A DNA stretch of 20,905 nucleotides from Candidatus Schekmanbacteria bacterium RIFCSPLOWO2_02_FULL_38_14 (GTDB taxonomy: Bacteria; Schekmanbacteria; GWA2-38-11). Location of the stretch: the NCBI GenBank assembly GCA_001790855.1, contig MGDH01000031.1, positions 1 to 20,905 on the forward strand. The letters are read 5' to 3'. This document shows positions 781-20,833 of this stretch, one piece after another. Position 1 is the first letter of the stretch. Every line of letters begins with the position of its first letter. Under the pieces are notes generated by a model. The model was not told where the DNA came from, did not search any database, and saw only the letters and a list, made by a program, of their open reading frames with translations. The translations under genes and the position numbers were made by a program.

Positions 781-782
781 AT

Positions 783-1988: not shown

Positions 1989-2012
1989 TTTTTTATATTC
2001 ACAATGTCCTAA

Positions 2013-4142
2013 TTACTTTTGAACCTTCACAGGTACTTTTGTTTTTAATGTGCCTGCCTTGAAAGTAACATTTGCTTTACCTTTTTTCCCCTTGGCTGTA
2101 ATCGTAAATGTGGCTTCACCATTTTCATCAGTATTAGCATTCTTTGGTGAAATCTTTATAGGACCCTGAATTATTGCCTTTACTTTTTGACCCTCAACTG
2201 GACAACCACCATTATCTGTCACTGTCACAGTTACATCACCGGCAGCCTTCCTCTTTAGTGCCAAACTGTCTGGATCCACAGCTATCAATTTAGCCTCGCC
2301 ATCACAAGGAGTTCCAGTTACAGTGAATACCGCCGTGATGTTTTTGTCTGCATCCATCGTCACCTGTCCGTCTGAGGTATCCCCGCTCCATCCCTCGAAG
2401 GTTGAACCGGCGTCAGGTGTTGCTGTGAGAGTTACGGCCGTGCCTTCGTTATAAACCTCATTACAATCCTCGCCGCAGTTTATTCCAGCAGAGTCGCTGG
2501 TAACCGTGCCGCTGCCTGCACCTGTCTTGGTTACTGTAAGGGTATATGTTCCTGCGATCATGCCGTAGGCATCAGCAGCCGTCCACCCTTTCACCCAGTT
2601 TTCACTGGCGCTGAAAGCGCCGCGATACGGAGCCGGTGTGAGAAACCCGTCGGAAATAGCCGCATCGGCACTGGTAAGTGCCGCATTGGCAGGACGTGGG
2701 TCTATTTTTACAACAGGAAGGACACCCTTACCTTCTGTAGAAGTAAACAACGGGCCGCGGGTAATGCTCACAATCGGAGCGTCTGCCGAAGCAGAGCCGG
2801 GAATGACCACATTATTCTTGGCCGGATTACTGGCGCCACCAACAGTTACGCCAACCGCATCCGATTCGGTGTAGGCGGACGCGTGAAGGTTACTGAAGAA
2901 CACACTGTCCGTGATTTCTGCGAGTTTGCCGGAAGTCTGAACCGTGTAGAGCGCATCAGCGTGGTTGAAGTCCCCAATCGAGCACCCGATGCAAGGATTA
3001 ACATTCGAAGTAACCGTGTAATCTGTCGTCCACGTATCCGCAAACGACAGCGTGCCGTTGTAGCCGTAGCCCTGGCCGCCGTCGCCGTCGCTGTTGTCAT
3101 TTTTAATAAGTCTTTCACCCAGATCCATAAAGATGCAGTTGCGATACTGAAGACGGGCGTTGTCACGCCAGGCCATTCCCTGATCCCCGTCAATCGGATT
3201 GCCAATGACGGTGGCATTATAGATCACGGACGTGGTCACTGGCTGCGCGTCAGAATCTTCCGCGCCGTCGGCTTCGAAAACGTTGTCACCCACACCGGAA
3301 CCCTGTTTGGCATCGGCGCTGTAGCCCTGAACGAGAAAAATGAACTGGGCTTTGCCGCGCCAGCCTTCATCAAGGTCGAAGCTGTCGTCACCGACGTTCC
3401 AGATGCTAATATATTTCAGGTTAACCGTGCCGCCCCAGATTTCAATACCATCATCCACATTGTTCATGATCTCAACATGATCGATATCGGTTTCGCGACC
3501 GACAGCACCCAACGACAGACCGTTGAGCTCGTTGGCGAGACCGATCACTTTACCGCCGTAACGCAGCGACAGATAGCTGATCGAACCGCTGTCGTCATTG
3601 TCATCGTTACCTCCGTACAGCGCGTAATTAGCATCAGTCAAACCTTCCATTTGCTTCTCATTTAAACCCGAAGGATCCTTTGTGTTGTCACCCACCGGAA
3701 GGCCCCCGTAATGAGAAGCGGAAATTAATCCTTCACCCATAATCGTCAGATTGCCCCACTCATTGGCACCCGCATGCCACTTCCCGGTTTTAGGGTCCCC
3801 GCCGCTGGGGTGGCCAGCGTCGGCTTTCCAGGTCGCCACATCATCAGTGGAGGTCATAATTACCGGGTTGTCTTTGGTGCCGTTCACAAAGATTTTAGCG
3901 CCGCGTGCCACAGCCAAACTACCGCCGGTACCGGTAGTACTCGCGATAACCGTACCTGCCTCGATGGTCAAAGTCGCGCCTGACAGAACGTATATCTGCT
4001 TCTCCAGCCTGTACACATTGTCCGCAGTCCACGTCGTGGAAGCGGTAATATTTTTCTCTACCTTCACCGTGGCCGCACCGGCAGTGCCGGCCATGAAAAG
4101 GGCCATCATGACCCCTAATACTGTTTTTCTCATGATTTTCAT
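2013..4142 (-). CDS. secreted beta-helix protein with InlB-like and Ig-like C-terminal domains, 709 aa
   Basis: Exported protein. The signal peptide is cleaved after AGA at about residue 23. Residues of about 30-510 form a repetitive beta-rich region typical of right-handed parallel beta-helices (IEAGTVIAS, ARGAKIFVNGT, WGNLTIMGEG, YLSLRYGG, HVEIMNNVDDGIEIWGG). Acidic stretches such as GGNDDNDDSGS and NSDGDGG could bind calcium. About 530-607 is a divergent InlB B-repeat type module (TYTLTVTKTGAGSGTV, CGEDC, FEGWSGDTSDG, ITAVFT), and about 612-709 is an invasin/BIG-1-like Ig fold (VDPDSLALKRKAAGDVTVTV, NTDENGEATFTITAKGKKGK). A strong ribosome binding site (AAGGAGG, 9 bases before ATG) supports the start. 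It heads the lipoprotein and TonB receptor genes, so it probably captures or presents the receptor's substrate at the cell surface. No catalytic motif was recognised. GC drops near the 3' end, which hints at a mosaic origin. Confidence 0.82.
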   Translation of the reverse strand: MKIMRKTVLGVMMALFMAGTAGAATVKVEKNITASTTWTADNVYRLEKQIYVLSGATLTIEAGTVIASTTGTGGSLAVARGAKIFVNGTKDNPVIMTSTDDVATWKADAGHPSGGDPKTGKWHAGANEWGNLTIMGEGLISASHYGGLPVGDNTKDPSGLNEKQMEGLTDANYALYGGNDDNDDSGSISYLSLRYGGKVIGLANELNGLSLGAVGRETDIDHVEIMNNVDDGIEIWGGTVNLKYISIWNVGDDSFDLDEGWRGKAQFIFLVQGYSADAKQGSGVGDNVFEADGAEDSDAQPVTTSVIYNATVIGNPIDGDQGMAWRDNARLQYRNCIFMDLGERLIKNDNSDGDGGQGYGYNGTLSFADTWTTDYTVTSNVNPCIGCSIGDFNHADALYTVQTSGKLAEITDSVFFSNLHASAYTESDAVGVTVGGASNPAKNNVVIPGSASADAPIVSITRGPLFTSTEGKGVLPVVKIDPRPANAALTSADAAISDGFLTPAPYRGAFSASENWVKGWTAADAYGMIAGTYTLTVTKTGAGSGTVTSDSAGINCGEDCNEVYNEGTAVTLTATPDAGSTFEGWSGDTSDGQVTMDADKNITAVFTVTGTPCDGEAKLIAVDPDSLALKRKAAGDVTVTVTDNGGCPVEGQKVKAIIQGPIKISPKNANTDENGEATFTITAKGKKGKANVTFKAGTLKTKVPVKVQK

Positions 4143-4231
4143 CTTTAATATCCTCCTTCATTAAGTTATTGTTACTTACTACTTCTTATATAGAACTTTA
4201 CAGGTTGACCATGAATCATCCTATCTTGTCG

Positions 4232-5877: not shown

Positions 5878-7662
5878 TTAAACTCTTGGCAGGGTAAAAA
5901 TAAACCTGCTTCCCTTATTGAGTTCACTCTCCACCCATATTTTTCCGCCGTGTGCCTCAACGATGTGCTTAACAATGGAAAGACCAAGCCCTGTTCCGCC
6001 AAGTTCCCTTGAACGGGCTTTGTCAACACGGTAGAAACGCTCAAATATCCTGTCTGTTTCGTTGGAAGGGATTCCTATTCCATCGTCTTTGACTGAAATC
6101 TCTATGAAATTACCGGAAGGCTTTGCATTGACTGAAACCTTCCCGCTTTCAGGAGTGTACTTTATTGCATTGTCAATAAGGTTATTGAAAACAAGCTCAA
6201 TCTTGTTTCTGTCAACAAAAACATTCTCCGCGCCATTCTGAATGCTAACATCAACAGAGAGTTTCTTTTTTCCCATTTCCTCTCTGAAAGCAGAAATGCA
6301 TCCATCAACAATCTGCTTCAATGTAACCTGAAATTTTGTAATTTGATAATCTCTTGATTCAATCTTTGCCAGCTCAAGAAGATCTGATATCAGCTTGTTC
6401 ATTTTTTCAGCATTAAATTTTATTGTTTCAAGAAAATTTGCAAGAGTAACACTGTCATCTTTTGCCCCGTCAATCAGAGCCTCCGCATAACCTTTGATAG
6501 AAGTAAGAGGAGTTCTCAGCTCATGGGATACATTGGCTACGAAATCCTGCCTTACTCTTTCAAGCTTTTTTATTCCTGTTATGTCATGGAACACAAGCAC
6601 AGCACCTGATAGTGAATCCTCTCCTGCTCCAAAATATGCTGACTGAACCCGAAGAATTGTCTCTTTTGAAAGGAGAGCTGTGATTTCAGCAATTCTGCCT
6701 CTTTTCTCTTTAATTGAAGATTTTATGATATCTGAAATCTCGTGGTTTCTGATTATTTCAGAATAGGACTTGCCTGTGCCTTCAGATTTTTCAATTCCCA
6801 GAATTCTTTCAAGCGCAGAATTTATGAGAATAATTTTTCCTGTCTGGTCAACAGCCATAACACCTTCAACCATGCTCGCAAGAACAGTTGAAAGCTGAGC
6901 CTTTCCCCTGCCCTCTTCTTTTATTTTAAGCTCAAGCTTTCCTGCCATCTCATTAAAAAAATCTCCTAAGTCCCCCATCTCATCCTTTGTATGGATTTTT
7001 GTCCTGTAACTTAAATCCCCTTCAGAAAATTTCTTTGAGGCTTTCATTATCTGGTCAACAGGATTTGTAATGGTTTTGGAAAAAATGAAACTTAAGGCAA
7101 GTGCAAAAAGAAATGAGCCAATAAGCGTAAAAACAATTATCCTCTGAAGATTCATAATCTGATTGTTCAGTTCAATGAATGGAAGAGCAATCCTTGCAAA
7201 ACCTGTTATTTCATTTACATTCTTTATTGATGCTGCAACATAGAGCATCTCTATCTTAATAGTTTCGCTGTAACGGATACTTGAACCAACTCCTGTGTTA
7301 AGCGCATCTCTTATCTCAGGACGGTTAAGATGGTTTTCCATCTTTAAGATATCATTACCGCTCTCGTAAGAATCTCCCAGAACAACACCATTCCTGTCAA
7401 TAATGGTAATTCTTGAATTGGTCTTTGCTCCAAGAGAATCAACAAGCGCATCAATCTCATTTCTCCCTTGAGTTACTAACAATTTTTCTGAAAATATCTC
7501 AGCAAGCAGATGTGCTTCTGTCTCCATTGATTTCCTGACCTGATCAGTTCCGTATTTCTTTGATGAAAGAATTATGAATGTTCCGGTTATTGAAAAAGAG
7601 ACAATAAGAATAGCAAAATAAGTAAGAAAGAGTTTCCAGCGGATTTTAATTTTTATACCCAT
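5878..7662 (-). CDS. PhoR-type sensor histidine kinase, 594 aa
   Basis: Membrane sensor kinase. From the ATG at 7662 there is a TM helix (about 10-33), an extracytoplasmic sensor of about 140 residues, a second TM helix (about 175-195), HAMP (about 196-248, with [18 protein letters not shown]), PAS (about 255-360), a HisKA domain with phospho-acceptor H380 in [16 protein letters not shown], and an HATPase domain (N box [13 protein letters not shown]1 DDGIGIP, F box ERFYRVD, G2 [12 protein letters not shown]). This order is that of PhoR-type kinases. A longer frame starting with TTG at 7698 overlaps the response regulator by 29 bases; the ATG seven bases after that stop is preferred. It is co-transcribed with the regulator. 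The phosphate role is inferred from the domain type, psiE and the Pho-like boxes nearby. Confidence 0.9.
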
Positions 7663-7669
7663 TAAAGTT

Positions 7670-8356
7670 TCACAGATTTTCTTTGAATTTGTAGCCAAGC
7701 TGTTTGACTGTAACTATGTGGTCTGAAATGCCAGGTAGCTTTTCCCTCAATCTCCTTATATGGACATCAATAGTTCTTGTTGTGCCGTAATAGTCATACC
7801 CCCATACGTCATTTAAAAGCTTGTCCCTTGTAAGCACTCTCTCCTTGTTTCTCAGAAGTTCTTCAAGCAGCCAGAATTCTTTTGAAGTAAGCTTAACCTG
7901 ATTTTTATCAAGGAGTACCTCATGGCTTTCGAGATTCAAAGTAAGGTTTTTAAATTTATAGACCTTCTGCTTCTCTCCTCCTCTCTCAATTCTCCGTAGC
8001 AATGCCTTTACTCTTGCCACAAGCTCTTTAGGGCTGAATGGTTTTGTTATGTAATCATCAGCCCCAAGTTCAAGCCCGATAATCCTGTCAGATTCATCAC
8101 CTTTTGCAGTAAGCATTATTATGGGGACGTTAGATACTTTGCTGTCACTCCTTATTCTCTTGCAAACTTCAATCCCGTCAATTTTTGGAAGCATGAGGTC
8201 AAGGATTACCACATCAGGATTCTGTTTCTTCACAAGCTCAAGCCCCTTTTCGCCATCAAAGGCTGATAGAGTCTCAAAATTATCCTTTTCAAGATAATGC
8301 TTCACAAGTTCTGCAATGTCTTTCTCGTCTTCTATTATGAGTATTTTCTTTGGCAT
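7670..8356 (-). CDS. PhoB/OmpR-type response regulator, 228 aa
   Basis: Receiver domain (1-120) with acidic pocket IIEDEKD, phospho-acceptor D53 in [14 protein letters not shown]83 and K105 ([19 protein letters not shown]). A winged-helix DNA-binding domain (about 130-225) follows, with the recognition region [30 protein letters not shown]-type pattern. The length is typical of PhoB. It is the first gene of the pair with the kinase. It is a good candidate to bind the 11-bp-period repeats at 4541-4559 and 5534-5552. No such repeat was seen upstream of the regulator itself, so autoregulation is not supported. The split of the names PhoB, ResD and similar cannot be made from sequence alone. Confidence 0.92.
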
Positions 8357-8490: not shown

Positions 8491-9624
8491 TTATTCAACT
8501 CTAAACTTGAACAGCTTCACTCCAACTAAAAGCATTATAATTCCGTAGAGGTACAAACCTCCAAGAAAGGGAAGAACATCTCCTATTTCTTTGCCCCGTA
8601 TCATCAAATCAAAAAAACAGTCCATTGCCCACGCTGGCATTACAAGGTGTGAAAGTTTCTGCATCCATTTCGGTTCAATGAACAGGGGCCACCAGCACCC
8701 TCCCATTGCAGACATTATAAGAATTGTCAGAGTTCCCAAAGACCTTGCCTGCTCCCTTGATTGTGAAAGGGATGCAACAAGGACTCCTATGCTTGAAGCT
8801 GAAAATGCAACGCCAAGTATTGTAAGAAAAAGCCCTGAAAGGGAATTCCCAAGAGAGATATCAAATGCAAAATATCCGAAGGCAAAAAGAACCAGCATCT
8901 GAACCATTCCTATAACTGTTCTTGCAAGGAGTTTTCCGCCTAAGATTGAGGATTTGGATACAGGAGCTACCAAAAGTCGCTGAAAGGTGTGGTCCTCGTC
9001 TCTTTCTCTGAATATTGCCTCGGAAAACCCTACAAGCATTCCAAACATTATGAACATTATGCTGAATCCCGGCACATTCTGGTCAAAAGAACTGATATTG
9101 CCTTTAATTCCTGTAAGGTTTTCTTCCTTTATCTCAACCTGACTTAATCCAAGCTGAGGCGGAAGACTTTTGATTAAAAGCTTTATGGCAGAAGCATTTA
9201 CAAAGGATTTTATTGTCATAACCTCCATCCCCTTTGCAGGGTCCGTGAGAATCCTCACTGTAAAAGGCTTGCGGTCCAAATAGCTTGTTGTAAATCCCTT
9301 TGGAATTATGATTGCGCCTGCTGCCTTGTTTTCATCCCTTACAAGCTGATAAGCCTTCTCGTACTCAACCTCTTTCAAATCAAGGGATTTATTTTCTTTC
9401 AGAACTTCTATCAAGGATTTTGAGAGGGAATCTTTGTCAAGGTCAACAAGAGGAAGAAAAATTTTTACAAAATCTCCGCTCTTTCCATAAATCCCGCCAA
9501 GAGCAAAGCCTATAACAGTAATAACTGCAATTGGAACTGCTACCATCATCAAAAGCGCAGGTCTGTCGCGGAAGAGGAGTTTAAATTCATTAAGGGAAAT
9601 GAACAGAAGTTTTTTCAAACTCAA
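8491..9624 (-). CDS. ABC-2 type exporter permease, 377 aa
   Basis: Membrane subunit of an ABC exporter. It has one N-terminal TM helix (LLMMVAVPIAVITVIGFALG, about 24-43), a large extracytoplasmic domain (about 45-185), then five TM helices. FRERDEDHTFQRLLVAPVSKSSILGGKLLA is the usual ABC-2 (YhiH/DrrB-like) cytoplasmic loop pattern, and SLSQSREQARSLGTL lies between late helices. It starts with TTG inside the last codons of the ATPase gene (TTGA overlap), which implies coupled translation; no ATG is available before the second half of the first helix. Relatives export lipids, drugs or polymers. Its place beside lipid-type enzymes suggests a lipid-like cargo (inference). Confidence 0.88.
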   Translation of the reverse strand: MSLKKLLFISLNEFKLLFRDRPALLMMVAVPIAVITVIGFALGGIYGKSGDFVKIFLPLVDLDKDSLSKSLIEVLKENKSLDLKEVEYEKAYQLVRDENKAAGAIIIPKGFTTSYLDRKPFTVRILTDPAKGMEVMTIKSFVNASAIKLLIKSLPPQLGLSQVEIKEENLTGIKGNISSFDQNVPGFSIMFIMFGMLVGFSEAIFRERDEDHTFQRLLVAPVSKSSILGGKLLARTVIGMVQMLVLFAFGYFAFDISLGNSLSGLFLTILGVAFSASSIGVLVASLSQSREQARSLGTLTILIMSAMGGCWWPLFIEPKWMQKLSHLVMPAWAMDCFFDLMIRGKEIGDVLPFLGGLYLYGIIMLLVGVKLFKFRVE

Positions 9625-10349
9625 TCTCTCAATTCCTTTCCTGTCAGTTTCAGAAAAAGAGCTTCAAGGTCAGTAACATCCGTACCCGAAAGCAGTTCAT
9701 CCAGCGAACCCTGTGCTATGAGATTCCCTTCATCTATTATTGCAATCCTGTCGCAGAGCCTTTCAGCCTCCTCCATGTAGTGTGTGGTATAAAGAACTGT
9801 AACACCTTCATATTTTAAAAGCTCAACATTTTTAAAAATATGCTCCCTTGTCTGAGGGTCAACCCCGACTGTCGGTTCATCAAGAAAAAGGTATTTTGGG
9901 GCATTGATAATGCCGCAGGCAAGGTTAAGTCTTCTCTTCATTCCGCCTGAATAGTTTTTGACTATGTCATCCTTGCGCTCCTTGAGTCCAACAAAATCAA
10001 GAACCCCTTCGATTCTGCTTTTCAGCTCCCTGCCATTAACTCCGTACATTCTTCCAAAAAATTTTAGATTCTCCTCTCCGGTTAAAGAAGAATAAAGTGA
10101 TATCTCCTGCGGTACGACACCAATTATTTTTTTTACCTCTTCCTTGCTTGCAATAACACTTCTGCCTTCAATAAAACCATCACCTGAGGTTGGTCTGATA
10201 TAACCGGAAAGAATGGATATGAGAGTGGTTTTTCCTGCGCCGTTTGGACCCAAGAGCCCAAAAATCTCACCCTTGCCTATTGCAAGGTTTATCCCTTTAA
10301 GGGCTTCAATTTCACCGTATTTCTTTACGAGGTCTTTTGTTTCAATCAT
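9621..10349 (-). CDS. ABC transporter ATPase, 242 aa
   Basis: ATP-binding subunit for the permease that follows. Walker A GPNGAGKTT (34-42), Q-loop region VVPQE (about 78-82), signature YSGGM (133-137), Walker B YLFLDEPTVGVD (153-164) and switch His H190 (TTHYMEE). It belongs to the CcmA/DrrA-like class that pairs with ABC-2 permeases, and the length is typical for a half-size ATPase without a long C-terminal extension. The start codon lies just inside the end of a dispersed repeat (10355-10498), so the promoter, if separate from the upstream genes, would have to lie within that repeat. Confidence 0.93.
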   Translation of the reverse strand: MIETKDLVKKYGEIEALKGINLAIGKGEIFGLLGPNGAGKTTLISILSGYIRPTSGDGFIEGRSVIASKEEVKKIIGVVPQEISLYSSLTGEENLKFFGRMYGVNGRELKSRIEGVLDFVGLKERKDDIVKNYSGGMKRRLNLACGIINAPKYLFLDEPTVGVDPQTREHIFKNVELLKYEGVTVLYTTHYMEEAERLCDRIAIIDEGNLIAQGSLDELLSGTDVTDLEALFLKLTGKELRD

Positions 10350-10354
10350 AATTT

Positions 10355-10498
10355 TTAGTGAATAGTAAGTTGTCAGCAGTCAGCTTTCAGCTATCAGTAT
10401 TCAGAGGCAGAGCAAGGCTCTGCGGCTACATTTCTGAACTCATAACTGACAGGCGAGACCTGCCTACTGTCAGGCAGGCGCCTGTCCTACTATTCACT
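10355..10498 (+). repeat. dispersed hairpin repeat, copy A
   Basis: About 144 bases, with a close inverted copy at 12911-13058 and a shorter copy at 19668-19777. It holds GCAGAGC-AAG-GCTCTGC (10407-10423) and a nested structure: GACAGGCG (10448-10455) and CGCCTGTC (10479-10486) enclose CCTGCCT-ACTGTC-AGGCAGG (10459-10478). The ends carry TTAGTGAATAG and CTATTCACT. It overlaps the last codons of the hydrolase gene. Confidence 0.85.
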
Positions 10499-11171
10499 GA
10501 CGACTATTCACTATAAAAAACCTTCCAATCATTTCTGCAAGAGCTTTCTCATATCCCCTGAAAAAGTGGTCCTGATTTTTGATGATGGCAATCTTTTTGG
10601 GAGGCATTACCGTCTTTGAAAAAGAATCTATTTCATCACTGCCTGCAGCAAAATCCTTTTCCCCCCAGACAAAAAGTTTTTTTAAAGGTAAGGCTGCAAG
10701 CCCTTGGAAATCATACCTGCCGAGGGGCAGGGATATGCCAGCCAAGGCTTTTATTTCTGTTTTTAAAGCAAGCTCCTCAAGGACTCTTGCCCCGAAAGAA
10801 TACCCCGCCATAAATATTTTTTCCGCCTCTACAATTTTTCTTGCATTTTCAAGGACAGAAAAACTGTCCTTGAAAATCTCACTGTAATCATTGCTGCTGT
10901 CAAGCCTTTCCCAGTAATCATAAAGAGTTACTTCAGGCTCTAGCTTCTCGCTTTCCCCAACCCCCCTGTAATTGAATCTGAATACAAAAAAATTCTCCTT
11001 TGCAAGATACTCTGCAATCCCGCAAAGCACATTGTTCATCATATCACCGCCAAGCTTTGGATGGGGAGAAAAAAGGATTAGCAGGTTCTCGCTGCTTCCT
11101 TTTTCATTATAGTCAAGAATCCCTTCAAGGGTTAAACCAGAGGATGAAAATTTTATCTTTTCAGAAAACAT
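10494..11171 (-). CDS. alpha/beta hydrolase, 225 aa
   Basis: Compact alpha/beta hydrolase of the COG2945/dienelactone-hydrolase-like type. The oxyanion-side motif is SPHPKLGGDMMNNV (35-48), then FRFNYRGVGESE (64-75). The nucleophile elbow is GYSFGA with S125; the likely acid is D173 (WGEKDFAAG) and the His is H202 (NQDHFF). It has no signal peptide, so it is cytoplasmic. It starts directly after the YceI stop (TAGATG) and is thus translationally coupled to it. The last residues (NSRQ) are read from the repeat that follows, so the natural C-terminus may have been changed by the repeat's insertion. In context it may release an acyl or ester intermediate; the substrate is unknown. Confidence 0.85.
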   Translation of the reverse strand: MFSEKIKFSSSGLTLEGILDYNEKGSSENLLILFSPHPKLGGDMMNNVLCGIAEYLAKENFFVFRFNYRGVGESEKLEPEVTLYDYWERLDSSNDYSEIFKDSFSVLENARKIVEAEKIFMAGYSFGARVLEELALKTEIKALAGISLPLGRYDFQGLAALPLKKLFVWGEKDFAAGSDEIDSFSKTVMPPKKIAIIKNQDHFFRGYEKALAEMIGRFFIVNSRQ

Positions 11172-11792
11172 CTAATTGTCTTTCTTATTCGCTTCTACAT
11201 TTCTTAAAACATCATTTTTCATCCCCACCATATCAAACTTTATAACCATCTTGTCCTTAACCCTCAAAAAAAGAAATGAAGTTGGTTTTACCTTGAAATC
11301 TTTTAAAGAAATCTCTTTTTGTCCAATAATATGAATTCTTCCGTCAACCGTCATCACATCAACCGGAATTCCAACCTCTTTTTTTGTTCCGTGAATTTCC
11401 AAATCCCCGGTTATTTCAAGCCTTGCTTTTGATTTGTCCTTAGAAACGTAAGATGGCTTTGCGCTTTTGAGAAAAAAAGTTATAAAAAAATACTTTCCTT
11501 CCTCCATATCTCCCATCATGTACTCATCTCTTTTCTGGTGGTTTGTTGTCATGGATTTTACCTTGATTTTCAAAGAACCCTTTCCTGTCTCTGCAATATG
11601 CTCTATATCTCCCTCTGCAAAACCATCAAATTCCTTTGCAATTCCGTCAAAATCGTGGAGTGTTGATTGCATAAAAAATGTAATCCTGCTCTGTTCAGGA
11701 ATAAAATCAAAACGCTGTATCTCGCAATACGTATATGGAATAGCAGGATAAAATAAAAAGAACAAAATAAGAAAATATTTTATTTTTCTCAT
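11172..11792 (-). CDS. YceI-like lipid-binding protein, exported, 206 aa
   Basis: N-terminal signal peptide (IKYFLILFFLFYPAIPYTYC, cleavage near residue 23), then a YceI-type lipocalin-like barrel: FDFIPEQSRITFFMQSTLHDFDG, SMTTNHQKRDEYMMGDMEEGKYF in the usual position for xNxxRDxHM, GDLEIHGTKKEV, and a final KVKDKMVIKFD-type strand. The order and spacing fit the YceI family (PF04264), whose structurally characterised members bind polyisoprenoid lipids. The start codon overlaps the stop of the ligase gene by one base (TGATG). A periplasmic carrier for the lipid handled by neighbouring enzymes and the ABC exporter is a plausible inference. Confidence 0.78.
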   Translation of the reverse strand: MRKIKYFLILFFLFYPAIPYTYCEIQRFDFIPEQSRITFFMQSTLHDFDGIAKEFDGFAEGDIEHIAETGKGSLKIKVKSMTTNHQKRDEYMMGDMEEGKYFFITFFLKSAKPSYVSKDKSKARLEITGDLEIHGTKKEVGIPVDVMTVDGRIHIIGQKEISLKDFKVKPTSFLFLRVKDKMVIKFDMVGMKNDVLRNVEANKKDN

Positions 11793-12892
11793 CAGTAAAG
11801 CCCTTCCCTTAAAACCTGTTTAAGCTCTGATAAAGGCGCAGGGTCTTTAACTCCGTCAAGATAAAAGCCAAGTTGCTTCCATTCCTTCAGAGCCTCTACC
11901 CTTTTACCCTCGTCCCGTTCAATCAGATTTGGAATGAAAAAGGATTTATCAAGGCGATGAAACATCACCTGTCCTCTTTCACCGATTTCAGCATCCATAG
12001 CTATCCGTTTATTATCATTACAATTTGCTTTTTTTTCAATAATTTTTATAACAAGCCTTGGACCCGGCGGATAATAGCTTATTGTGTGGTCTTTTGAAGG
12101 AGAAAGTTCAAGTGTAAGACCAAAAAGAGTGTTGCCATAACCCGGTATAATGACAGAATATGGATAAAGTTTTTTTATTTTTTGATAATCCTCTGCTGTT
12201 AAAACCATACCGCCAAGGTGAATCCCTTTTATTTTCTCTCTTTTAAAAAAAGAAAGCCTTTCCCCGACTTCAATTGCAATAACAGGAGTTGTGAAAAGCA
12301 CACCAATCTCCTGAACACTGAAAATCCTCTCAGCCTGCTCCAGAACATGCTCCTTGTATCTCTCAAAGCCTGAAGAACCCTTTTCCATTTTCTTTATCCA
12401 TCTCGGGTCAAAATCAACACTGAAAGGTTCCATTGATGAAAAAGAGCGCGCCATAGCCTGAGCTGATTTGAATATTATGTGCGGTCCTGAGGGACCAATA
12501 AAAGCCCAGTTCAATTCAACAGGAAACCTTCTCTTCCCTGCAACAAACCTGAAAAACTCCACAAAGGCATGCTGAAATTCAGCCTCAAGGTAGGCAGTAG
12601 TTTTGATTTTTCCTGTTGTTCCGCCTGTTTCACAGATTACAAGATTTTTTTTCTTTTTAAGAAAAGTTTTTGGCAGGAATTCTTCAATTGGAAGGTTGAC
12701 CAGATCCTCCTCTTTCATTGGACCAAGGAGTTTCAGGTCACCTATGGATCTGATTTCATCCAGTACAGAAATCCCCAGTTCTTTTTCTTTTTTTAACCAG
12801 TATGGTGTTCCTGATTTTTTGTCAAAGTGAACTTTAAGAATCTCTCTTAACCACTCATCCTGATTTTTCCTAAACCAAGGTGCTTTTAGCAT
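11792..12892 (-). CDS. PaaK/LuxE-like adenylate-forming enzyme, 366 aa
   Basis: Likely activates a carboxylic acid as acyl-AMP. ATP-binding motif ETGGTTGKIK (88-97), aromatic YGNT-type motif PGYGNTLFG (about 253-261), and RGQVMFHRLD and ERDEG in the positions of later adenylation motifs. The N-terminal AMP-binding region resembles phenylacetate-CoA ligases, but at 366 residues it ends without the usual C-terminal small domain with the A10 lysine. That length is close to LuxE acyl-protein synthetases, which pass acyl groups to a reductase. It heads a tight three-gene set (ligase, YceI, hydrolase), with an inverted repeat copy on each side. Pairing with the SDR-SCP2 reductase upstream would give activation followed by reduction (inference). 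Confidence 0.72.
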   Translation of the reverse strand: MLKAPWFRKNQDEWLREILKVHFDKKSGTPYWLKKEKELGISVLDEIRSIGDLKLLGPMKEEDLVNLPIEEFLPKTFLKKKKNLVICETGGTTGKIKTTAYLEAEFQHAFVEFFRFVAGKRRFPVELNWAFIGPSGPHIIFKSAQAMARSFSSMEPFSVDFDPRWIKKMEKGSSGFERYKEHVLEQAERIFSVQEIGVLFTTPVIAIEVGERLSFFKREKIKGIHLGGMVLTAEDYQKIKKLYPYSVIIPGYGNTLFGLTLELSPSKDHTISYYPPGPRLVIKIIEKKANCNDNKRIAMDAEIGERGQVMFHRLDKSFFIPNLIERDEGKRVEALKEWKQLGFYLDGVKDPAPLSELKQVLREGLY

Positions 12893-12910
12893 ATTAAGTC
12901 ACTTGTTTAT

Positions 12911-13058
12911 AGTGAACAGTAGGACAGGCGCCTGCCTGACAGTAGGCAGGTCTCGCCTGTCAGTTCGGAGTTCAGAGTAGTGAGTAGCCGCAGAGCCTTG
13001 CTCTGCCTCTGAATACTGATAGCTGAAAGCTGACTGCTGACAGCTTGCTATTCACTAA
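12911..13058 (-). repeat. dispersed hairpin repeat, copy B (inverted relative to copy A)
   Basis: Reverse complement of copy A with only scattered differences. It includes the nested hairpin (GACAGGCG...CGCCTGTC) and GCAGAGC-AAG-GCTCTGC. Where A has ATTTCTGAACTCAT, B has TCACTACTCTGAACTCC. It fills the gap between the SDR-SCP2 gene and the ligase gene, with TATTCACT motifs continuing to 13070. Confidence 0.85.
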
Positions 13059-13073
13059 ATACTATTCACTCTC

Positions 13074-14606
13074 TTAAAACTCAAAACTCTTAAAAAATTC
13101 ATCAAACACAGGAGCAAGGGAAAGTGCCTTCCCTATATTCCCCTCTATCTCAACCCTTCTTTGAAAAAATGCCTCCTGAGGTTTTATTTTTCTCTCAATC
13201 AGCTCTTCAAGGCTTTTTGAAGTCAGTACGAATTTGAAGTCTGTCTGAAAACCATTCTCCTGTGATATCTTCTTTAATACGCCATTCTCTATCAGCAAAA
13301 AAACATTCTTGTTCAAATCAGAAAGTTTAATTGAAAACCGGCTGTTTAAGGTTTTGAGGTTAGGAATGATGCTCCCCCCAACTCTTTTTTCAAGGCTTTT
13401 GAAGAAAATTGAATAAACAGGTTCCTTGCAAGGCTCTTTTTTCTCACCAAAATCCACACCAACAGCGTAATCTATTACCCTGAGATAATATTCCTTGTCA
13501 AGCTCAGGGAAAGAAAGTCCGGATGATGCAAGAATCCCTGAAGTCTGCGAAGATTCAAATTCAGGTTCTCTTTCAAAATAAGGTCCATAGATTTTTATTG
13601 AATCATTTATTATCCTCTCAAACCTGTTTGGTTTTCCTGATTCATAGTCATCCTTTGAAACAAGAGTTATCCCTTTTACTCCTATGCCGGGATGGAGTTC
13701 ACTGTTAAGCCATGAAAATGCAGGAGGAGACGGATTGGTAAGATGGAAGGTATTTATTCCTTGGCATTCCCTTTCAGCAATTACGCATATTGCCTTCCCT
13801 ACAAAATCAACAGGCACAATGTTCTTTTTCGCATCAGGGTTTACTGCTATCCTGAATGGAAGGACAAGATAATTATTTTCCTCTCTTATCCCCAGTTTCT
13901 CAAGTTCTGAATCTTTTCTCCTGATTCTTTCCTCAAGTTTTTTTCTTACAGAATAAAGTACTTTGAAATATATATACAAGGCATTAAAATTTGTTGTCCT
14001 TCCGGACGCATAATCACCCATTATTATTCCCGGCCTGAAAAAATTTCCGGGAATTTTCTCTTTCTCAAGAAATTTTCTTGCAATAACCTCTGATTCATAT
14101 TTTGTCTTTTCATAAATATTATTAAAGCCCTGCCCTACATCCAGATCCTTTTCACAGAACCTGCCTTTAAAGTCTCCTGCAACATATGCCGTGCTTACAA
14201 AATGGAATACTTTTGCTTTTATCCCTGATGCAAAATCCAAGATGTTTTTCGTGCCTTCTACATTTGCGCTTTCAAGAAGCTCTGAAGCTGCGGGACTGAA
14301 ACTGGTGCAGGCTGCGCAGTGAAGCACCTCAATCTCCTTTCCTTTAAATAATTTTAAATCTTTCTCTTCAAGACCAAGCCCTTTAAACTCAACATCTCCT
14401 TCAAGGACTTTTAATCTTTCTTCTAAGAACTTATCAGGGTTTCCCATCCCCCAGAAACGAAGCGCCTCAAAAACCCTCTCGCTGCTTTTTACGCCATCCC
14501 TTGTCCTTGCAAGGAGATAAAGGGTGTGTCCTCTTTTGAGAAGTTCTGTCGCGACATAACTTCCTAAAAGTCCTGTAGCTCCTGTCAGAAAAATATTTTT
14601 ACCCAT
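13074..14606 (-). CDS. SDR/thioester-reductase-like protein fused to an SCP2 domain, 510 aa
   Basis: N-terminal extended short-chain dehydrogenase fold of the NAD_binding_4 (male-sterility/thioester reductase) type: dinucleotide motif TGATGLLG (8-15), HCAACTSF (about 96-103), FVSTAYVAGD (136-145), catalytic Y165-x3-K169 (YEKTK) and FRPGIIMGD. The C-terminal part of about 110 residues (400-510) looks like a sterol carrier protein 2 domain: FSIKLSDLNKNVFLLIENG, LTSKSLEELIERKIKPQEAFF, VEIEGNIGKALSLAPVFDEF. SCP2 domains hold hydrophobic lipids, and UbiT of the oxygen-independent ubiquinone pathway is one. The ATG at 14606 is chosen because it lies 9 bases after the U32 stop; a frame from 14654 would add 16 residues without family features. 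The gene is co-transcribed with the U32 gene. Confidence 0.82.
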   Translation of the reverse strand: MGKNIFLTGATGLLGSYVATELLKRGHTLYLLARTRDGVKSSERVFEALRFWGMGNPDKFLEERLKVLEGDVEFKGLGLEEKDLKLFKGKEIEVLHCAACTSFSPAASELLESANVEGTKNILDFASGIKAKVFHFVSTAYVAGDFKGRFCEKDLDVGQGFNNIYEKTKYESEVIARKFLEKEKIPGNFFRPGIIMGDYASGRTTNFNALYIYFKVLYSVRKKLEERIRRKDSELEKLGIREENNYLVLPFRIAVNPDAKKNIVPVDFVGKAICVIAERECQGINTFHLTNPSPPAFSWLNSELHPGIGVKGITLVSKDDYESGKPNRFERIINDSIKIYGPYFEREPEFESSQTSGILASSGLSFPELDKEYYLRVIDYAVGVDFGEKKEPCKEPVYSIFFKSLEKRVGGSIIPNLKTLNSRFSIKLSDLNKNVFLLIENGVLKKISQENGFQTDFKFVLTSKSLEELIERKIKPQEAFFQRRVEIEGNIGKALSLAPVFDEFFKSFEF

Positions 14607-14614
14607 AATTTTTT

Positions 14615-15820
14615 CTACTCGTTTAGATAGCAGATTTTTGCGCTTTCCATCCAAGCCGTTACCTGCTTCCTGTAATGCTCCTCTGATAAATCCTCTCTGA
14701 TAATTCTGTCAAGGATTCTCTCCATGTTCTCAATATACTGGTTGAGAAGTTTTTTATCATATTTTAAAACCTCTCCTGCTTTTTTGTGACAGAAATCGCA
14801 CTCCTCACACCCTTTCTCGCAAGGGAATCCTTTTTCAAAAAACTCCATAAATCCATTCAAATCTTTCTCATCAAGATATACCTCCAGCGCTTCAAGCTTC
14901 TCTATAGATGACTTTTTTCTGAAAGCAAGGTGATGGGGCCAGCCAAGAAGCGGTAAAAGGTTCCCGTCATATTTCCCTTTCAGATATGCCTCTCCGAGAG
15001 CAAGAAGTTCTTCCCTCTTTGAACCCCTTCCTGCAAGTTTTATCCAGTCAATCCCCGCATCATCAAGATATTTTATATCCCTTGGCGCAAACCACGGAGA
15101 TGCCAAGAATTCACCGGGGTTTTTTAGTTTTTCAAGAGTGCACCTCAAGAGACTGTATTGGTTATATATCATTTCTTCCTTCTTATCTCCCCTCTGGCTT
15201 CCGTGCCCTGTATTGTTGTAATGATAATACTCAAGGTGGCAGGAAATTATGCAGGTATGATTTGCAATGACTTCAATCTCTCCTTTTAAAGAGTTTCTCA
15301 TCCTTTTAAGCAAAGAAAGATTTCTGTTAACATCAGGGTCAATTACTATCCTTTGTACTCCCATCTCCTCAAATCTTCTTGCAGCCCTTATATCAGAAAT
15401 ATAACAGAGAGATGATGCAACAATTTCAATGTGCGGATGCCGTTCTCTGATAATTTCAATAAGAAGCGGTATAGTAACAACTATAGAATCAATTCCAATT
15501 TCTGCAATACCATCAAGAAAATCAAGAATCTCCTTCCTCCCTTTTGCAGAGTATTCAATGTTGCCAAGGCATGGAGCATTTGCAAGGTAGCTGAATTTTA
15601 TTCCGAATGAATGGGCTTTTTTTATGTGGTCTTTGAACTGCTTTTTTGTAGGCGCAGGCAGATACTTTGAAGGTCTTGCAGAACCAAGAATTGAAGTCTG
15701 GAATGAACCGTATACTTCCCTTATCTCTCTTTTAGTGTCTGAATATTTTGTATTTAACTTATCAAGTTCCTCAAGATAGGAACTCTCAAAAGTTGTTGGA
15801 AGCGTTATTTTAATTCTCAA
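14615..15820 (-). CDS. U32-family Fe-S protein with extra C-terminal cysteine motif, 401 aa
   Basis: TIM-barrel-like protein of the peptidase U32 family. FSYLANAPCLGN (76-87), IEIVASSLCYISDIRAARRFEEMGVQRIVID and ANHTCIISCHLEYYH (186-200) are in the usual U32 order. Cysteines C190, C194 and C227 are candidate Fe-S ligands. The C-terminus has a C-x3-C-x2-C-x2-C motif (C334, C338, C341, C344) not present in UbiU/UbiV, perhaps a second cluster. U32 members such as UbiU/V, RlhA and TrhP act in hydroxylations, not proteolysis. The start appears to be TTG at 15820, with AGGAG only about two bases upstream; ATT two codons on would have better spacing. It lies between the ScdA_N gene and the SDR-SCP2 gene, in one likely operon. 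Confidence 0.8.
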   Translation of the reverse strand: MRIKITLPTTFESSYLEELDKLNTKYSDTKREIREVYGSFQTSILGSARPSKYLPAPTKKQFKDHIKKAHSFGIKFSYLANAPCLGNIEYSAKGRKEILDFLDGIAEIGIDSIVVTIPLLIEIIRERHPHIEIVASSLCYISDIRAARRFEEMGVQRIVIDPDVNRNLSLLKRMRNSLKGEIEVIANHTCIISCHLEYYHYNNTGHGSQRGDKKEEMIYNQYSLLRCTLEKLKNPGEFLASPWFAPRDIKYLDDAGIDWIKLAGRGSKREELLALGEAYLKGKYDGNLLPLLGWPHHLAFRKKSSIEKLEALEVYLDEKDLNGFMEFFEKGFPCEKGCEECDFCHKKAGEVLKYDKKLLNQYIENMERILDRIIREDLSEEHYRKQVTAWMESAKICYLNE

Positions 15821-15845
15821 ACTCCTGTTTTGTCTTTAATAAATT

Positions 15846-16046
15846 CTATTCTGTAATCATTTTATTAAGAGCCTTTAGCAGGGTATCAACATCAACTCCG
15901 TCAGCCCTTGCTGTTTTTTCAATGCTATTACCGCCACCACAGCAGGCATCAACTTTGAGCTCATTAAAGATTCTTACTGTTTTTGGATACTTCTTTATTA
16001 CATCATTTATTACCATATCCTTTGAGATAAGTGGTTCTGCTTCCAT
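15846..16046 (-). CDS. stand-alone ScdA_N (DUF542) domain protein, 66 aa
   Basis: Small protein that matches the N-terminal domain of the RIC/ScdA/YtfE Fe-S repair family: NDVIKKYPKTVRIFNELKVDACCGGGNSIEKTA, with the CCGGG signature at C35-C36. The hemerythrin di-iron domain of full-length RIC is absent; stand-alone copies are known in anaerobes. AAGGAGA before the ATG supports the start. It lies 25 bases before the U32 gene and 115 bases after the DUF1858 gene. It could supply or protect clusters for the U32 enzyme (inference). Confidence 0.85.
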   Translation of the reverse strand: MEAEPLISKDMVINDVIKKYPKTVRIFNELKVDACCGGGNSIEKTARADGVDVDTLLKALNKMITE

Positions 16047-16161
16047 TTTACTTCTCCTTATAAATAGTTTGTATTCCTTTTTTTCAAATCAAATCATTTT
16101 AAACCTTACCAAAATTTCCATGCTTTTGCCACCAATTTATCAAGCATCTGTGCAATTATTT

Positions 16162-16368
16162 CTAAGAATTAATTGCCGCATTTATTTCTTCAACCATTTT
16201 ATTCACATCTGCATTGTGCATAGCAGCCCCAAATGTAAGAGATTCCATATTGATTCCGGGACAGGTAAAACATCCATTCCCAAAATATTTCTGAATAACC
16301 TCCTTTGCCTTGGGATAATTTTTAATAATATCCCCAATAAGGCTTTCCTTGTTTACTGTTCCAGCCAT
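16162..16368 (-). CDS. DUF1858 (hybrid-cluster-associated) small protein, 68 aa
   Basis: Matches the DUF1858 domain (PF08984; linked to hybrid cluster proteins and redox disulfides). ESLIGDIIKNYPKAKEVIQKYFGNGCFTCPG carries the CxxC pair C33/C36, followed by ESLTFGAAMHNADVNKMVEEIN. The fold and pattern parallel the ScdA_N protein next door, so the two are distant relatives with different cysteine motifs. AGGAGGGAA before the ATG is a strong ribosome binding site. It is the first gene of the minus-strand operon that continues through ScdA_N, U32 and SDR-SCP2, downstream of an FNR-like palindrome. Confidence 0.85.
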   Translation of the reverse strand: MAGTVNKESLIGDIIKNYPKAKEVIQKYFGNGCFTCPGINMESLTFGAAMHNADVNKMVEEINAAINS

Positions 16369-16436
16369 TGTTATTCCCTCCTATTTCATAAATTTTCGTT
16401 ATCAGTCATAAGTTATAGGTTATTAGTTCTGTTATC

Positions 16437-16479
16437 TATATAGTCATTTCTTGAAAATCCCTCTATGATTTAAATCATA
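16437..16479 (-). promoter_or_regulatory. FNR/CRP-like palindrome and -10 for the DUF1858 operon
   Basis: TATGATTTAAATCATA (16464-16479) is a perfect 16-bp palindrome with core TGAT-N4-ATCA, as in FNR-family sites (TTGAT-N4-ATCAA). On the minus strand TATATA (16442-16437) is centred 32 bases further on, which would put the site at about -41.5, the class II activator position. It is consistent with control by oxygen or nitric oxide. Confidence 0.5.
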
Positions 16480-16544
16480 ATAAAGTAAAATTCCAAAAGC
16501 CTATAGCCATTCTGCATATAAATTAACCCTTTTATCATAACCCT

Positions 16545-16561
16545 TGCACAAAGTTTATGCA
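16545..16561 (+). promoter_or_regulatory. NtrC-like enhancer site
   Basis: TGCACAAAGTTTATGCA is a 17-bp near-palindrome with one mismatched pair. It has the length and TGCA ends of NtrC sites (TGCACC-N5-GGTGCA) and lies about 100 bases upstream of the sigma-54 promoter, a usual enhancer distance. Confidence 0.4.
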
Positions 16562-16659
16562 CCTGCGGATTCTATATAATTTTTTATTTTTTTAAAAGTT
16601 AAAAATAAAAACCTTTTTATTCAAAGAGTTAAACTGAATAAAAACATTTAGTGAATTTT

Positions 16660-16674
16660 TGGCATAACTATTGC
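16660..16674 (+). promoter_or_regulatory. sigma-54 promoter of the ammonium transporter operon
   Basis: TGGCATAACTATTGCTTT has GG (16661-16662) and GC (16673-16674) separated by exactly 10 bases, the invariant -24/-12 pair. The start would be near 16686, which leaves a short leader before the ATG at 16713. It fits nitrogen control of amt-glnK. Confidence 0.85.
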
Positions 16675-16712
16675 TTTAAGTAAAACTAAGTTTTACTCAG
16701 GATGAAACTTTT

Positions 16713-18769
<2,057 letters not shown>

Positions 18770-18802
18770 TTAAATAAAAACCCTCCATTCCGTATTTCAA
18801 TT

Positions 18803-19609
18803 TTACATTGGTATCTCTGGCTCAATCACAACCCTGCTGATATTTGCTTCATTGAAGCCTTTTGGAGGGAATTCATTTTTAAAGAAAATAGTATTCCCCT
18901 TTCTGACCAGAGGGACCGGCATTGCAGGGTTTTGTAATAGAAAGGTATATCTCTGGCATTCCTTTCTGCATGGATATATACCAACCTGCTCAAGTTTTTC
19001 AGGTATATCGCAGGAGTTTGCGAGGCAGAATCTTGTGGTTGAGACATAGGCAAAGGGAAGATAGAGAGAAACCGTGATTCCATTGGACAGGAAATTGAAA
19101 TTTATATCCTGCAAAACATTGTCAAATTCAACCCTTTCAATCCTGTTTTCTTTAAGAAACCCTACAAACTCCGGAACATCAAGATTTACGCTCTGGTAAT
19201 ACTCAACAGTATCTTTTGGAAGATGATTTATTACTGCCATCAGCCTTGGTCCCCGTTTCATCTTATTAAGCATTCTTCCCATTACAGGCACTAATTCTTT
19301 ATACTCTCTCCTCAAAAGCCTTAACACTCCCCAGTCATTGAACACGACTTCAATCTTTTTTTCTCCAAGCTCAAGTTCAGACACTCTTTTAAGAAGAGGG
19401 ATAAGCCTTTTGATGCCTTTATTTGTGACAAACGGAGTAACCAGAGTAAAATCTGCATTCCTTTTGATGACAAAATCAATAGCAGCATCCAGTTTATCAG
19501 TGCATGGAATAAGCTCTTCGCAAAACTCATTCCCGAAATAGAGGCGTGTAAAGGTATTATCAAAATATTTAAGATTATCTGTTTTTGATATAAAAACTGC
19601 AAATTCCAT
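18803..19609 (-). CDS. U32-family protein with UbiV-like cysteine pattern, 268 aa
   Basis: Single TIM-barrel-like U32 protein. Conserved stretches are FTLVTPFVTNKGIKRLIPLL (54-73), VVFNDWGVLRLLRREY (88-103), GRMLNKMKRGPR (111-122) and FCLANSC...YPCRKECQRY (194-221). Candidate 4Fe-4S ligands are C36 (or C30), C200, C214 and C218: C-x13-C-x3-C. As I recall, E. coli UbiV uses C39, C180, C193 and C197 (C-x12-C-x3-C), so the match in order and spacing is close, and the length is near UbiV's 292. UbiV acts with UbiU in oxygen-independent hydroxylation of ubiquinone precursors. Whether the substrate here is a quinone is unknown. It lies downstream of the UbiU-like gene on the same strand, separated by a repeat. 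Confidence 0.78.
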   Translation of the reverse strand: MEFAVFISKTDNLKYFDNTFTRLYFGNEFCEELIPCTDKLDAAIDFVIKRNADFTLVTPFVTNKGIKRLIPLLKRVSELELGEKKIEVVFNDWGVLRLLRREYKELVPVMGRMLNKMKRGPRLMAVINHLPKDTVEYYQSVNLDVPEFVGFLKENRIERVEFDNVLQDINFNFLSNGITVSLYLPFAYVSTTRFCLANSCDIPEKLEQVGIYPCRKECQRYTFLLQNPAMPVPLVRKGNTIFFKNEFPPKGFNEANISRVVIEPEIPM

Positions 19610-19667
19610 ATCAGTATTTTACATTTCATTAAATATCCTGCACTAAGTTACTCATCGCACATATTTA

Positions 19668-19777
19668 GAGGCAGAGCAAGGCTCTGCAGCTACCTTTAAC
19701 CCTTGACCCTGACTTCCTTGACCATGGAGAACTCACTACTCTGAACTCATAACTGACAGGCGAGACGCCTGTCCTAC
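19668..19777 (+). repeat. dispersed hairpin repeat, copy C (short hairpin form)
   Basis: Shares GAGGCAGAGCAAGGCTCTGC and CTGAACTCATAACTGACAGG with copies A and B. Here the second hairpin is compact, GACAGGCG-AGA-CGCCTGTC (19755-19773), and lacks the 20-base inner palindrome found in A and B. A stretch of about 35 bases (from CTTTAACCC to ATGGAGA) is specific to this copy. It lies between the two U32 genes. Confidence 0.8.
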
Positions 19778-19801
19778 TGGTCACGAACCACGAGTAACGA
19801 G

Positions 19802-20833
19802 TCACGGTTCATTATTCACTTCTTCTTCAAATCCAACATCCGGATAATAACACATATGGTAGCGGCACGGACGCTTATAGGTTCTGTTATAGAGTTCCTT
19901 CATTTTCACTTTGAGCTCATTCCTTTTTGCACCGCTATTTTCAATCATCTCTTTCACGCTCTTTAAAAAGCCTATGTCCATAATCTTTTTTTCAGTCGGA
20001 TTTCCCCTGCCGACAATCTTGATGCTGTCAAGTCCGATTTCTCCAAAATCAATCACAGCACACACACCGCAGGGAGAATCATCAATGTGACACTTACTCC
20101 ATATATGCTGTCTTTTTATGGCTGTCTCCTGTTTAAGAACATCATCAGCCTCCATTGAACTGTTCCCGCCGGGCAGTACTGAAACCTGATATGGCAGCAT
20201 ACAGGCATTTCTGAAAAGCAGTTTATTTGAAGAACCCCCAAGCCCGTGCTGAAAGGTGCAGAAGCCATCAACATTCACACATCTGGAATTCAGAATAAAT
20301 GCCTCAAGTTCAATATCAGGAGATTTTTTTCTCAGCTCCCTTATCTCTTCAGTTGTCAGATGCCTTGGAAGAATCACCCTTGATGCTCCAAAGTCTTTGT
20401 AAAATTCTATTGTCTCTGAATTAAATGCTGTACCCCCTGTGCTTATATGGATTTTTATTCCAAAATCATTTTTTCTCATAAAAAGAAGAAGGGCTAAATC
20501 TGCAACAATAAGAGCATCAGCACCAGAAGCAACTACCTTCCTGATAAATTCTGTGATTAATGGATATTGCTTCTCTGTATAGTAGTGTTCGTTTAATGTG
20601 AGATAGACCGGAACATTTCTCTCATGAGCAATATTGACAACCTCTCTTAACTCTTCAAAGCTTTTGAGGTGTGAGCCTTTTGGTCTTCTGTCAATTGATG
20701 CAGGGAAATATTTTTCATTCCATTCCTCTGGAATCAACCCGCAATAAAACTCATCAGCCCCTGCCTCTATAAGTTTTTCTGCTTCACCCGGGGCATCAAT
20801 TGGTGAAAGAATTTTAATATTATTTAAGCGCAT
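19802..20833 (-). CDS. U32-family protein with UbiU-like cysteine pattern, 343 aa
   Basis: Peptidase-U32-family TIM barrel: ILSPIDAPGEAEKLIEAGADEFYCG (8-32), NEHYYTEKQYP, GADALIVADLALL (104-116), IHISTGGTAFNSETIEFYKDFGASRVILPRHLT (128-160) and the cluster region C185-x6-C192-x18-C211-x36-C248. E. coli UbiU, as I recall, uses C169-x6-C176-x16-C193-x38-C232, so the layout is very similar. Extra cysteines C255, C258, C323 and C328 occur later. The length is close to UbiU's 331. Predicted role: Fe-S protein in an oxygen-independent hydroxylation together with the UbiV-like neighbour; the substrate is unknown. The C-terminal end (EEEVNNEP) reads into the edge of a repeat region. No ribosome binding site precedes the ATG, and the promoter seems very close. 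Confidence 0.82.
   Translation of the reverse strand: MRLNNIKILSPIDAPGEAEKLIEAGADEFYCGLIPEEWNEKYFPASIDRRPKGSHLKSFEELREVVNIAHERNVPVYLTLNEHYYTEKQYPLITEFIRKVVASGADALIVADLALLLFMRKNDFGIKIHISTGGTAFNSETIEFYKDFGASRVILPRHLTTEEIRELRKKSPDIELEAFILNSRCVNVDGFCTFQHGLGGSSNKLLFRNACMLPYQVSVLPGGNSSMEADDVLKQETAIKRQHIWSKCHIDDSPCGVCAVIDFGEIGLDSIKIVGRGNPTEKKIMDIGFLKSVKEMIENSGAKRNELKVKMKELYNRTYKRPCRYHMCYYPDVGFEEEVNNEP

Follow-up and report, generated by a model that had tools for sequence, protein, structure and literature searches.

Two separate U32 gene modules in a Schekmanbacteria genome and their possible roles in O2-independent hydroxylation

Introduction

U32 proteins have been described as hydroxylases that need no O2 and draw their oxygen from prephenate, an organic source unique to them (PMC11574389). 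The products established for them so far are ubiquinone and RNA bases only. A stretch of 20,905 nt from Candidatus Schekmanbacteria bacterium RIFCSPLOWO2_02_FULL_38_14 (contig MGDH01000031.1; hereafter the window), part of a 2.68 Mb genome that is 99.4% complete (G000), encodes three U32 proteins, and this raises the question of whether they act together on one substrate or serve different pathways. A preliminary description of the window had proposed a single UbiTUV-type system, perhaps acting on a lipid. Here we describe two units, an adjacent UbiU-like/UbiV-like pair (unit A, 18803–20833) and a seven-gene block (unit B, 8491–15820) headed by the third protein, U32c. From their sequences and by analogy with known systems, we favour with moderate confidence the reading that each is a conserved module of its own for hydroxylation chemistry without O2, with hydroxylase activity and iron–sulphur cluster binding predicted for both.

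Results

Two U32 units, close together in the window and unlinked in relatives

The pair consists of a UbiU-like protein of 343 aa (P0002; 19802..20833, reverse strand; PF01136, E 7.8e-39) and a UbiV-like protein of 268 aa (P0001; 18803..19609, reverse strand) recognized by alignment, profile comparison with UbiV and fold. U32c (P0003, 401 aa; 14615..15820, reverse strand; Pfam Peptidase_U32, E 6.7e-16) falls into a separate U32 clade in the tree and is the first of seven consecutive genes on one strand: U32c, a short-chain dehydrogenase/reductase (SDR) fused to SCP2, a ligase, YceI, an alpha/beta hydrolase and the ATPase and permease of an ATP-binding cassette (ABC) transporter. The count of three U32 proteins given in the preliminary description thus stands, for P0002 and P0003 by Pfam and for P0001 by fold, cysteines and pairing together. 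Between the units, and belonging to neither, amt and glnB (16713..18769, forward strand; PF00909 and PF00543) lie on the opposite strand and split the pair from the block.

Two genomes of the same order (G002 and G003) keep both the pair and the block, at separate places. The pair shares ~50% identity with its counterparts there, and the genes of the block keep full colinearity across the three genomes, which indicates that the arrangement is not due to chance. Because each unit is strongly conserved yet unlinked in these order-mates, the comparison argues against one linked UbiTUV-type locus. The recurrence that the preliminary description had proposed to look for was found separately for each unit, the block in these three genomes and the pair in bacteria and archaea.

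The UbiU-like/UbiV-like pair is a family distinct from UbiU and UbiV

An alignment of 26 U-like sequences showed C31, C185, C192, C211, C255, C258, C323 and C328 of P0002 to be invariant; among V-like sequences, C30, C195 and C218 of P0001 were invariant and C214 was kept in >90%. All four UbiU-type [4Fe-4S] ligand positions are therefore retained in P0002 (C185, C192, C211 and C255), and P0001 has the CXnC...CX3C cysteines of UbiV. The preliminary description had read C185, C192 and C211 as well as C214 and C218 correctly; its remaining choices, C248, C36 and C200, were rejected as cluster ligands from the alignments of relatives, C248 not being conserved and its place being taken by C255, and C36 and C200 being replaced by C30 and C195. 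The resulting spacings, CX6CX18CX43C and CX164CX18CX3C, compare with CX6CX16CX38C and CXnCX12CX3C reported for UbiU and UbiV by Pelosi et al (PMC6747719).

Profile comparison with hhalign matched the P0002 family strongly to canonical UbiU (E 1.5e-34). The P0001 family matched UbiV weakly (E 1.2e-4) but with its cysteines in register, and P0001 had no Pfam match in the scan of the window proteins. AlphaFold models of both proteins were confident (pLDDT, the predicted local distance difference test score, 84.6 for P0002 and 88 for P0001). The best Protein Data Bank (PDB) match of the P0002 model was 5D88, the solved structure of the U32 protein Mk0906 (Z 17.6, above CutC at 15.8). Foldseek alone returned only chitinase-type barrels for P0001; VIA re-alignment then ranked 5D88 first (Z 13.3), tied with CutC at 12.9. 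Taken jointly, the modelled fold, the cysteines and the pairing with a UbiU-like gene, which was seen in most relatives checked, place P0001 in the U32 superfamily.

The pair thus resembles UbiU–UbiV (E. coli YhbUV) in being two adjacent U32 genes with CX6C + C + C and CXnC...CX3C cysteines and a U32 barrel. It differs in lacking an adjacent UbiT, in the additional invariant cysteines C31, C258, C323 and C328, and in forming separate clades (100%). P0002-type proteins are kept apart from the UbiU and TrhP clades (support 100/100) and also branch outside RlhA, V-like proteins form a clade separate from UbiV, and P0002 scores 98.9 bits against the UbiU model NF047963, whose cut-off is 440. Placement of the U-like protein among RlhA or TrhP, the outcome that the preliminary description had named as adverse to it, was not what we found, and P0002 was rejected as a TrhP.

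Genome scans and comparison of open reading frames (ORFs) detected the adjacent pair in Thermodesulfobacteriota, Undinarchaeales, Diapherotrites, a Falkowbacteria bin, Omnitrophota and many Proteobacteria, the carriers including reduced genomes of DPANN and the candidate phyla radiation (CPR).

A sister clade of the pair occupies qhp operons, most of which lack QhpG

In Proteobacteria, the pair sits within operons with QhpA, D, C, B, F and E, which belong to the quinohemoprotein amine dehydrogenase (qhp) system. QhpC (PF08992) was present in 12/12 proteobacterial pair-bearing genomes tested and in 0/228 further genomes of one class (Fisher p 1.7e-20); the class-wide QhpC search, used as background, gave no additional qhp genome. 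Such an operon, with the pair in it, also occurs in two further lineages (G121 and G250), and the qhp-linked U-like proteins all fall into one clade (100/98). Genomes with a qhp-type pair also hold canonical UbiU and UbiV, indicating that the pair represents paralogues with another job.

QhpG, a flavoprotein, is an O2-dependent dihydroxylase of tryptophan in QhpC and is required for formation of cysteine tryptophylquinone (CTQ; PMC7876137). Among complete qhp operons, 13 contained the V–U pair and no QhpG, and six contained both. A genome-wide search with the Colwellia protein (E 1e-10; identity of the query confirmed by NF049967) found QhpG in 6/22 genomes and not in the other 16, nor in the genome of any of the thirteen QhpG-less operons; the same query did detect QhpG at 27–32% identity elsewhere. 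Three canonical plasmid qhp loci (Paracoccus, Leisingera and Cupriavidus) have QhpG and no U32 pair, and a plasmid tblastn with P0002 returned distant U32 matches only. Since QhpG is missing in 16 of the 22 qhp genomes, the pair probably performs, or backs up, tryptophan hydroxylation without O2; by analogy, it would relate to QhpG as UbiUV does to UbiI/H/F, a known doubling of O2-dependent and O2-free enzyme types (PMC6747719). The operons that contain both suggest a backup role in some. The sister pairs would catalyse the same reaction in the place of an unrelated, O2-needing enzyme.

It is unlikely that the qhp pair carries out some other maturation step, with QhpG replaced by something unseen. 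The six operons carrying both QhpG and the pair would fit such a division of labour, but formation of CTQ depends on QhpG (PMC7876137), we saw no further hydroxylase candidate that recurs around the pair, and the UbiI/H/F–UbiUV case (PMC6747719) is a precedent for the doubling. The aldehyde dehydrogenase and AMP-ligase that do recur around the pair fit amine catabolism. Presence of UbiA did not discriminate (9/9 genomes and 14/14 controls), nor did presence of chorismate mutase.

A literature search found no paper linking U32 proteins to quinohemoprotein amine dehydrogenase or qhp, and the term "peptidase" is absent from the QhpG paper (PMC7876137). The association of the pair with QhpG-less qhp operons makes U32 chemistry on a protein tryptophan directly testable and bears on how amine dehydrogenase cofactors could be made without O2; if true, it would make a protein, rather than a lipid or RNA, the substrate of a U32 enzyme.

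The substrate of the window pair

The window pair is not among the qhp-linked branches of the tree: a qhp operon, or QhpC in the genome, was found for the sister clade and not for the window genome. Neighbours of such orphan pairs vary between loci. A Yip1-type protein lies beside the pair in G002 and a similar protein in G003; elsewhere the neighbour is a HemN-like radical SAM protein (L046/L048), an ArsP permease (L251/L253) or Moa genes (L252). In L054, the gene immediately downstream of the pair encodes a chorismate mutase, the sole CM_2 found in that genome. At four loci from two families (L255, L256, L257 and L260), TP_methylase is directly upstream of the UbiU-like gene (Pfam-checked in L255), possibly reflecting a different substrate class.

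G000 encodes MqnA and a UbiE–UbiA/MqnP pair, and thus makes menaquinone by the futalosine route. To our knowledge, this route requires no U32 hydroxylase. MqnA was not found in the archaeal and CPR genomes that carry the pair. Together, these findings do not favour a quinone as its substrate; quinone genes of the kind the preliminary description had suggested looking for are thus present, with no gain for a quinone role of the pair. Its proposal of a lipid substrate is also not supported for the pair: archaeal and CPR carriers lack MqnA and the best-understood context is QhpC. For unit B, judging from the neighbours of U32c, hydroxylation of a lipid or quinone is a reasonable guess.

We consider it improbable that the window pair modifies RNA in the manner of TrhP and RlhA, in place of a TrhP that the genome lacks, although several findings are compatible with this. 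A search of the whole G000 genome with PF01136 matched P0002 and P0003 only, so that TrhP and RlhA are apparently absent; hydroxylation of RNA is among the established roles of U32 proteins, and variable neighbours and occurrence in reduced DPANN and CPR genomes would suit a housekeeping target. TrhP and RlhA also share with the pair the U32 superfamily, a conserved cysteine motif and a link to prephenate. However, they belong to other clades, well apart, and have no second U32 partner; the order-mates carry a TrhP-like protein as well as the pair; and the qhp sub-clade indicates another substrate.

The UbiU-like and UbiV-like genes of the window are separated by a copy (19610..19801) of an interspersed intergenic repeat, whereas in most relatives inspected they abut or overlap. 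The repeat is ~150 nt long with the hairpin core GAGGCAGAGCAAGGCTCTGC, and the two other window copies lie at 10350–10493 and, inverted, at 12893–13073. The exact core GAGGCAGAGCAAGGCTCTGC was seen in loci of the window genome alone.

The seven-gene block combines predicted carboxylate activation and reduction with U32c

The second gene of the block encodes P0004, a thioester-reductase-type SDR (NAD_binding_4) with a C-terminal SCP2 domain (13074..14606, reverse strand; SCP2 E 1.3e-12), as assigned by Pfam; its best PDB matches are the R domains of MxaA and carboxylic acid reductase. Its ORF opens at a TTG at 14654, inside U32c; an ATG at 14606 together with orthologues makes the latter the likely start. 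Co-transcription of a U32 gene with an SCP2 protein, as first described, is supported. The SCP2 domain scores 27.0 bits against a curated UbiT cut-off of 46.9 and is fused to the SDR, and was rejected as a UbiT.

The carboxylate-activating enzyme, YceI protein and ABC exporter of the preliminary description were all identified by profile and Pfam searches. P0005 (366 aa; 11792..12892, reverse strand) is an EhpF-like carboxylate adenylase whose nearest solved relative is EhpF itself (3L2K, E 1.6e-34), an enzyme of phenazine carboxylate activation; no phenazine genes were seen near P0005, which is instead accompanied by the thioester reductase–SCP2 protein and U32c. The YceI-domain protein (11172..11792, reverse strand; PF04264, E 2.5e-16) has a hydrophobic, signal-like N-terminus by eye, and its homologue adjoins U32c in L215. 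It is followed by the alpha/beta hydrolase P0007 (10494..11171, reverse strand; Pfam), a DrrA-type ABC ATPase (9621..10349, reverse strand; TIGR01188, E 1.7e-86, slightly below its cut-off) and an ABC-2 permease (8491..9624, reverse strand; PF12698, E 1.9e-40), the last two syntenic in L122 and L123. A PhoR/PhoB-type two-component pair (5878–8356) lies directly downstream of the permease and is not beside the block in G002 or G003.

An unrelated genome (G027, locus L139) combines an EhpF-like ligase at 47% identity with a two-domain U32 protein, a free SCP2, an MMPL exporter and a homologue of P0007 at 31% identity. The same locus holds a multihaem cytochrome, a class III aminotransferase, a second SCP2-like protein and CrtI/CrtO-like oxidases, and possibly serves a hopanoid- or carotenoid-like lipid pathway.

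U32c relatives lie beside phenolic lipid and quinone genes

In U32c, two sets of cysteines (C190, C194 and C227; C338, C341 and C344) are kept in 14–15 of 15 relatives, and would allow more than one cluster. YceI and a type III polyketide synthase (PKS) accompany U32c in L209 and L215, and in some loci this combination includes a UbiE-like methyltransferase; in L211, a methyltransferase and (by eye) the start of a PKS lie near U32c. L206 has the order UbiE/U32c/UbiD/UbiA, which are menaquinone-type genes, UbiA lies near U32c in L204, and in L213 a DAHP (3-deoxy-D-arabino-heptulosonate 7-phosphate) synthase–chorismate mutase gene ends 13 nt upstream of U32c. These neighbours fit lipid or quinone hydroxylation better for unit B than for the pair, and a plausible reading of the gene content is that unit B helps to tailor phenolic lipids or quinones without O2. 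In the loci with type III PKS and UbiE-like methyltransferase, U32c stands at the hydroxylase place of srs-type alkylresorcinol/alkylquinone clusters, in which SrsC is a flavoprotein; the window operon differs in having no PKS. The literature search returned no paper linking U32 to such a type III PKS cluster, the matches appearing unrelated, and the term U32 is absent from a 2026 quinone survey. U32c operons are thus gene sets in which to seek O2-free tailoring of phenolic lipids and quinones.

An alternative, somewhat unlikely in our view, is that the product of the block is an ordinary alcohol or aldehyde of fatty or aryl type, with no hydroxylase role for U32c. An EhpF-like adenylase and a thioester reductase do make up a complete carboxylate-reduction module, and distant relatives of the ligase occur beside aldehyde dehydrogenase and Fe-dependent alcohol dehydrogenase with no U32 protein. 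Two near-invariant cysteine sets in U32c and its repeated occurrence beside quinone and phenolic-lipid genes argue the other way. These more distant ligases, found at L140–L148, all lack U32, and several adjoin aldehyde dehydrogenase, Fe-dependent alcohol dehydrogenase or PQQ-type repeat proteins.

Co-occurrence of the two units

Could the pair and the U32c/SCP2 block nevertheless form a joint UbiT-U-V-like system that works in trans on a single lipid, prenyl or acyl? Both lie within 12 kb in the window, and SCP2 is the fold of UbiT. Among 386 genomes, with presence of the pair called from a gap in the scores (>175 bits versus <=142), the pair was present in 18, U32c in 23 and both in seven, versus 1.1 expected (p 2e-5; p 0.005 after collapsing to families); the count, uncorrected for U32-rich anaerobes, makes a link in trans possible. 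In contrast, U32c is missing from 11/18 pair-bearing genomes and the pair from 16/23 genomes with U32c, the units are unlinked in both order-mates, the SCP2 score lies below the UbiT cut-off, and the sister pairs accompany a protein substrate, QhpC. We therefore regard a joint system as quite unlikely, and the single UbiTUV-type system of the preliminary description, whose parts are unlinked in relatives and have amt–glnB between them here, is not maintained.

Proposed mechanism

We propose that the pair and the block work as separate modules. Module A would be a heterodimer of UbiU-like and UbiV-like subunits, belonging to another family than the enzymes of ubiquinone synthesis; by analogy, each subunit would bind a [4Fe-4S] cluster, and the two would use an oxygen, probably that of prephenate, to hydroxylate an aromatic substrate. 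For the qhp sister pairs this would most likely be the precursor tryptophan in QhpC, a step otherwise taken by QhpG with O2; in the window organism the pair would act on a different aromatic. In module B, the EhpF-like enzyme would adenylate a carboxylate, the SDR would reduce the activated acid and U32c, with its second cysteine set, would hydroxylate the compound; SCP2 and YceI would act as carriers of the hydrophobic intermediate, for export by the ABC transporter.

Several points weigh against this proposal. Six qhp operons hold QhpG together with the pair, and QhpC was not found in the window genome or in the orphan-pair relatives, so that the qhp role cannot be carried over to the window pair. 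The varied neighbours of orphan pairs (HemN-like radical SAM protein, TP_methylase, ArsP and Moa) could mean RNA or another substrate. Four U32c loci (L207, L210, L212 and L216) have no lipid or quinone link, and most genomes surveyed are metagenome-assembled. The case for prephenate as donor is weak, as only two direct linkages (L054 and L213) count, chorismate mutase being otherwise near-universal. More broadly, and only tentatively, the pair family may be a general O2-independent aromatic hydroxylase that has QhpC as a protein substrate, while U32c serves phenolic-lipid and quinone pathways, the two branches meeting in the window organism.

The GC-rich flank of the window

The GC content of the window drops from ~0.52 to ~0.37 near 4 kb. 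On the GC-rich side (1–4200), a surface-type protein (2013–4142) combines InlB-repeat and Ig-like domains with a C-terminus resembling an anammox S-layer protein.

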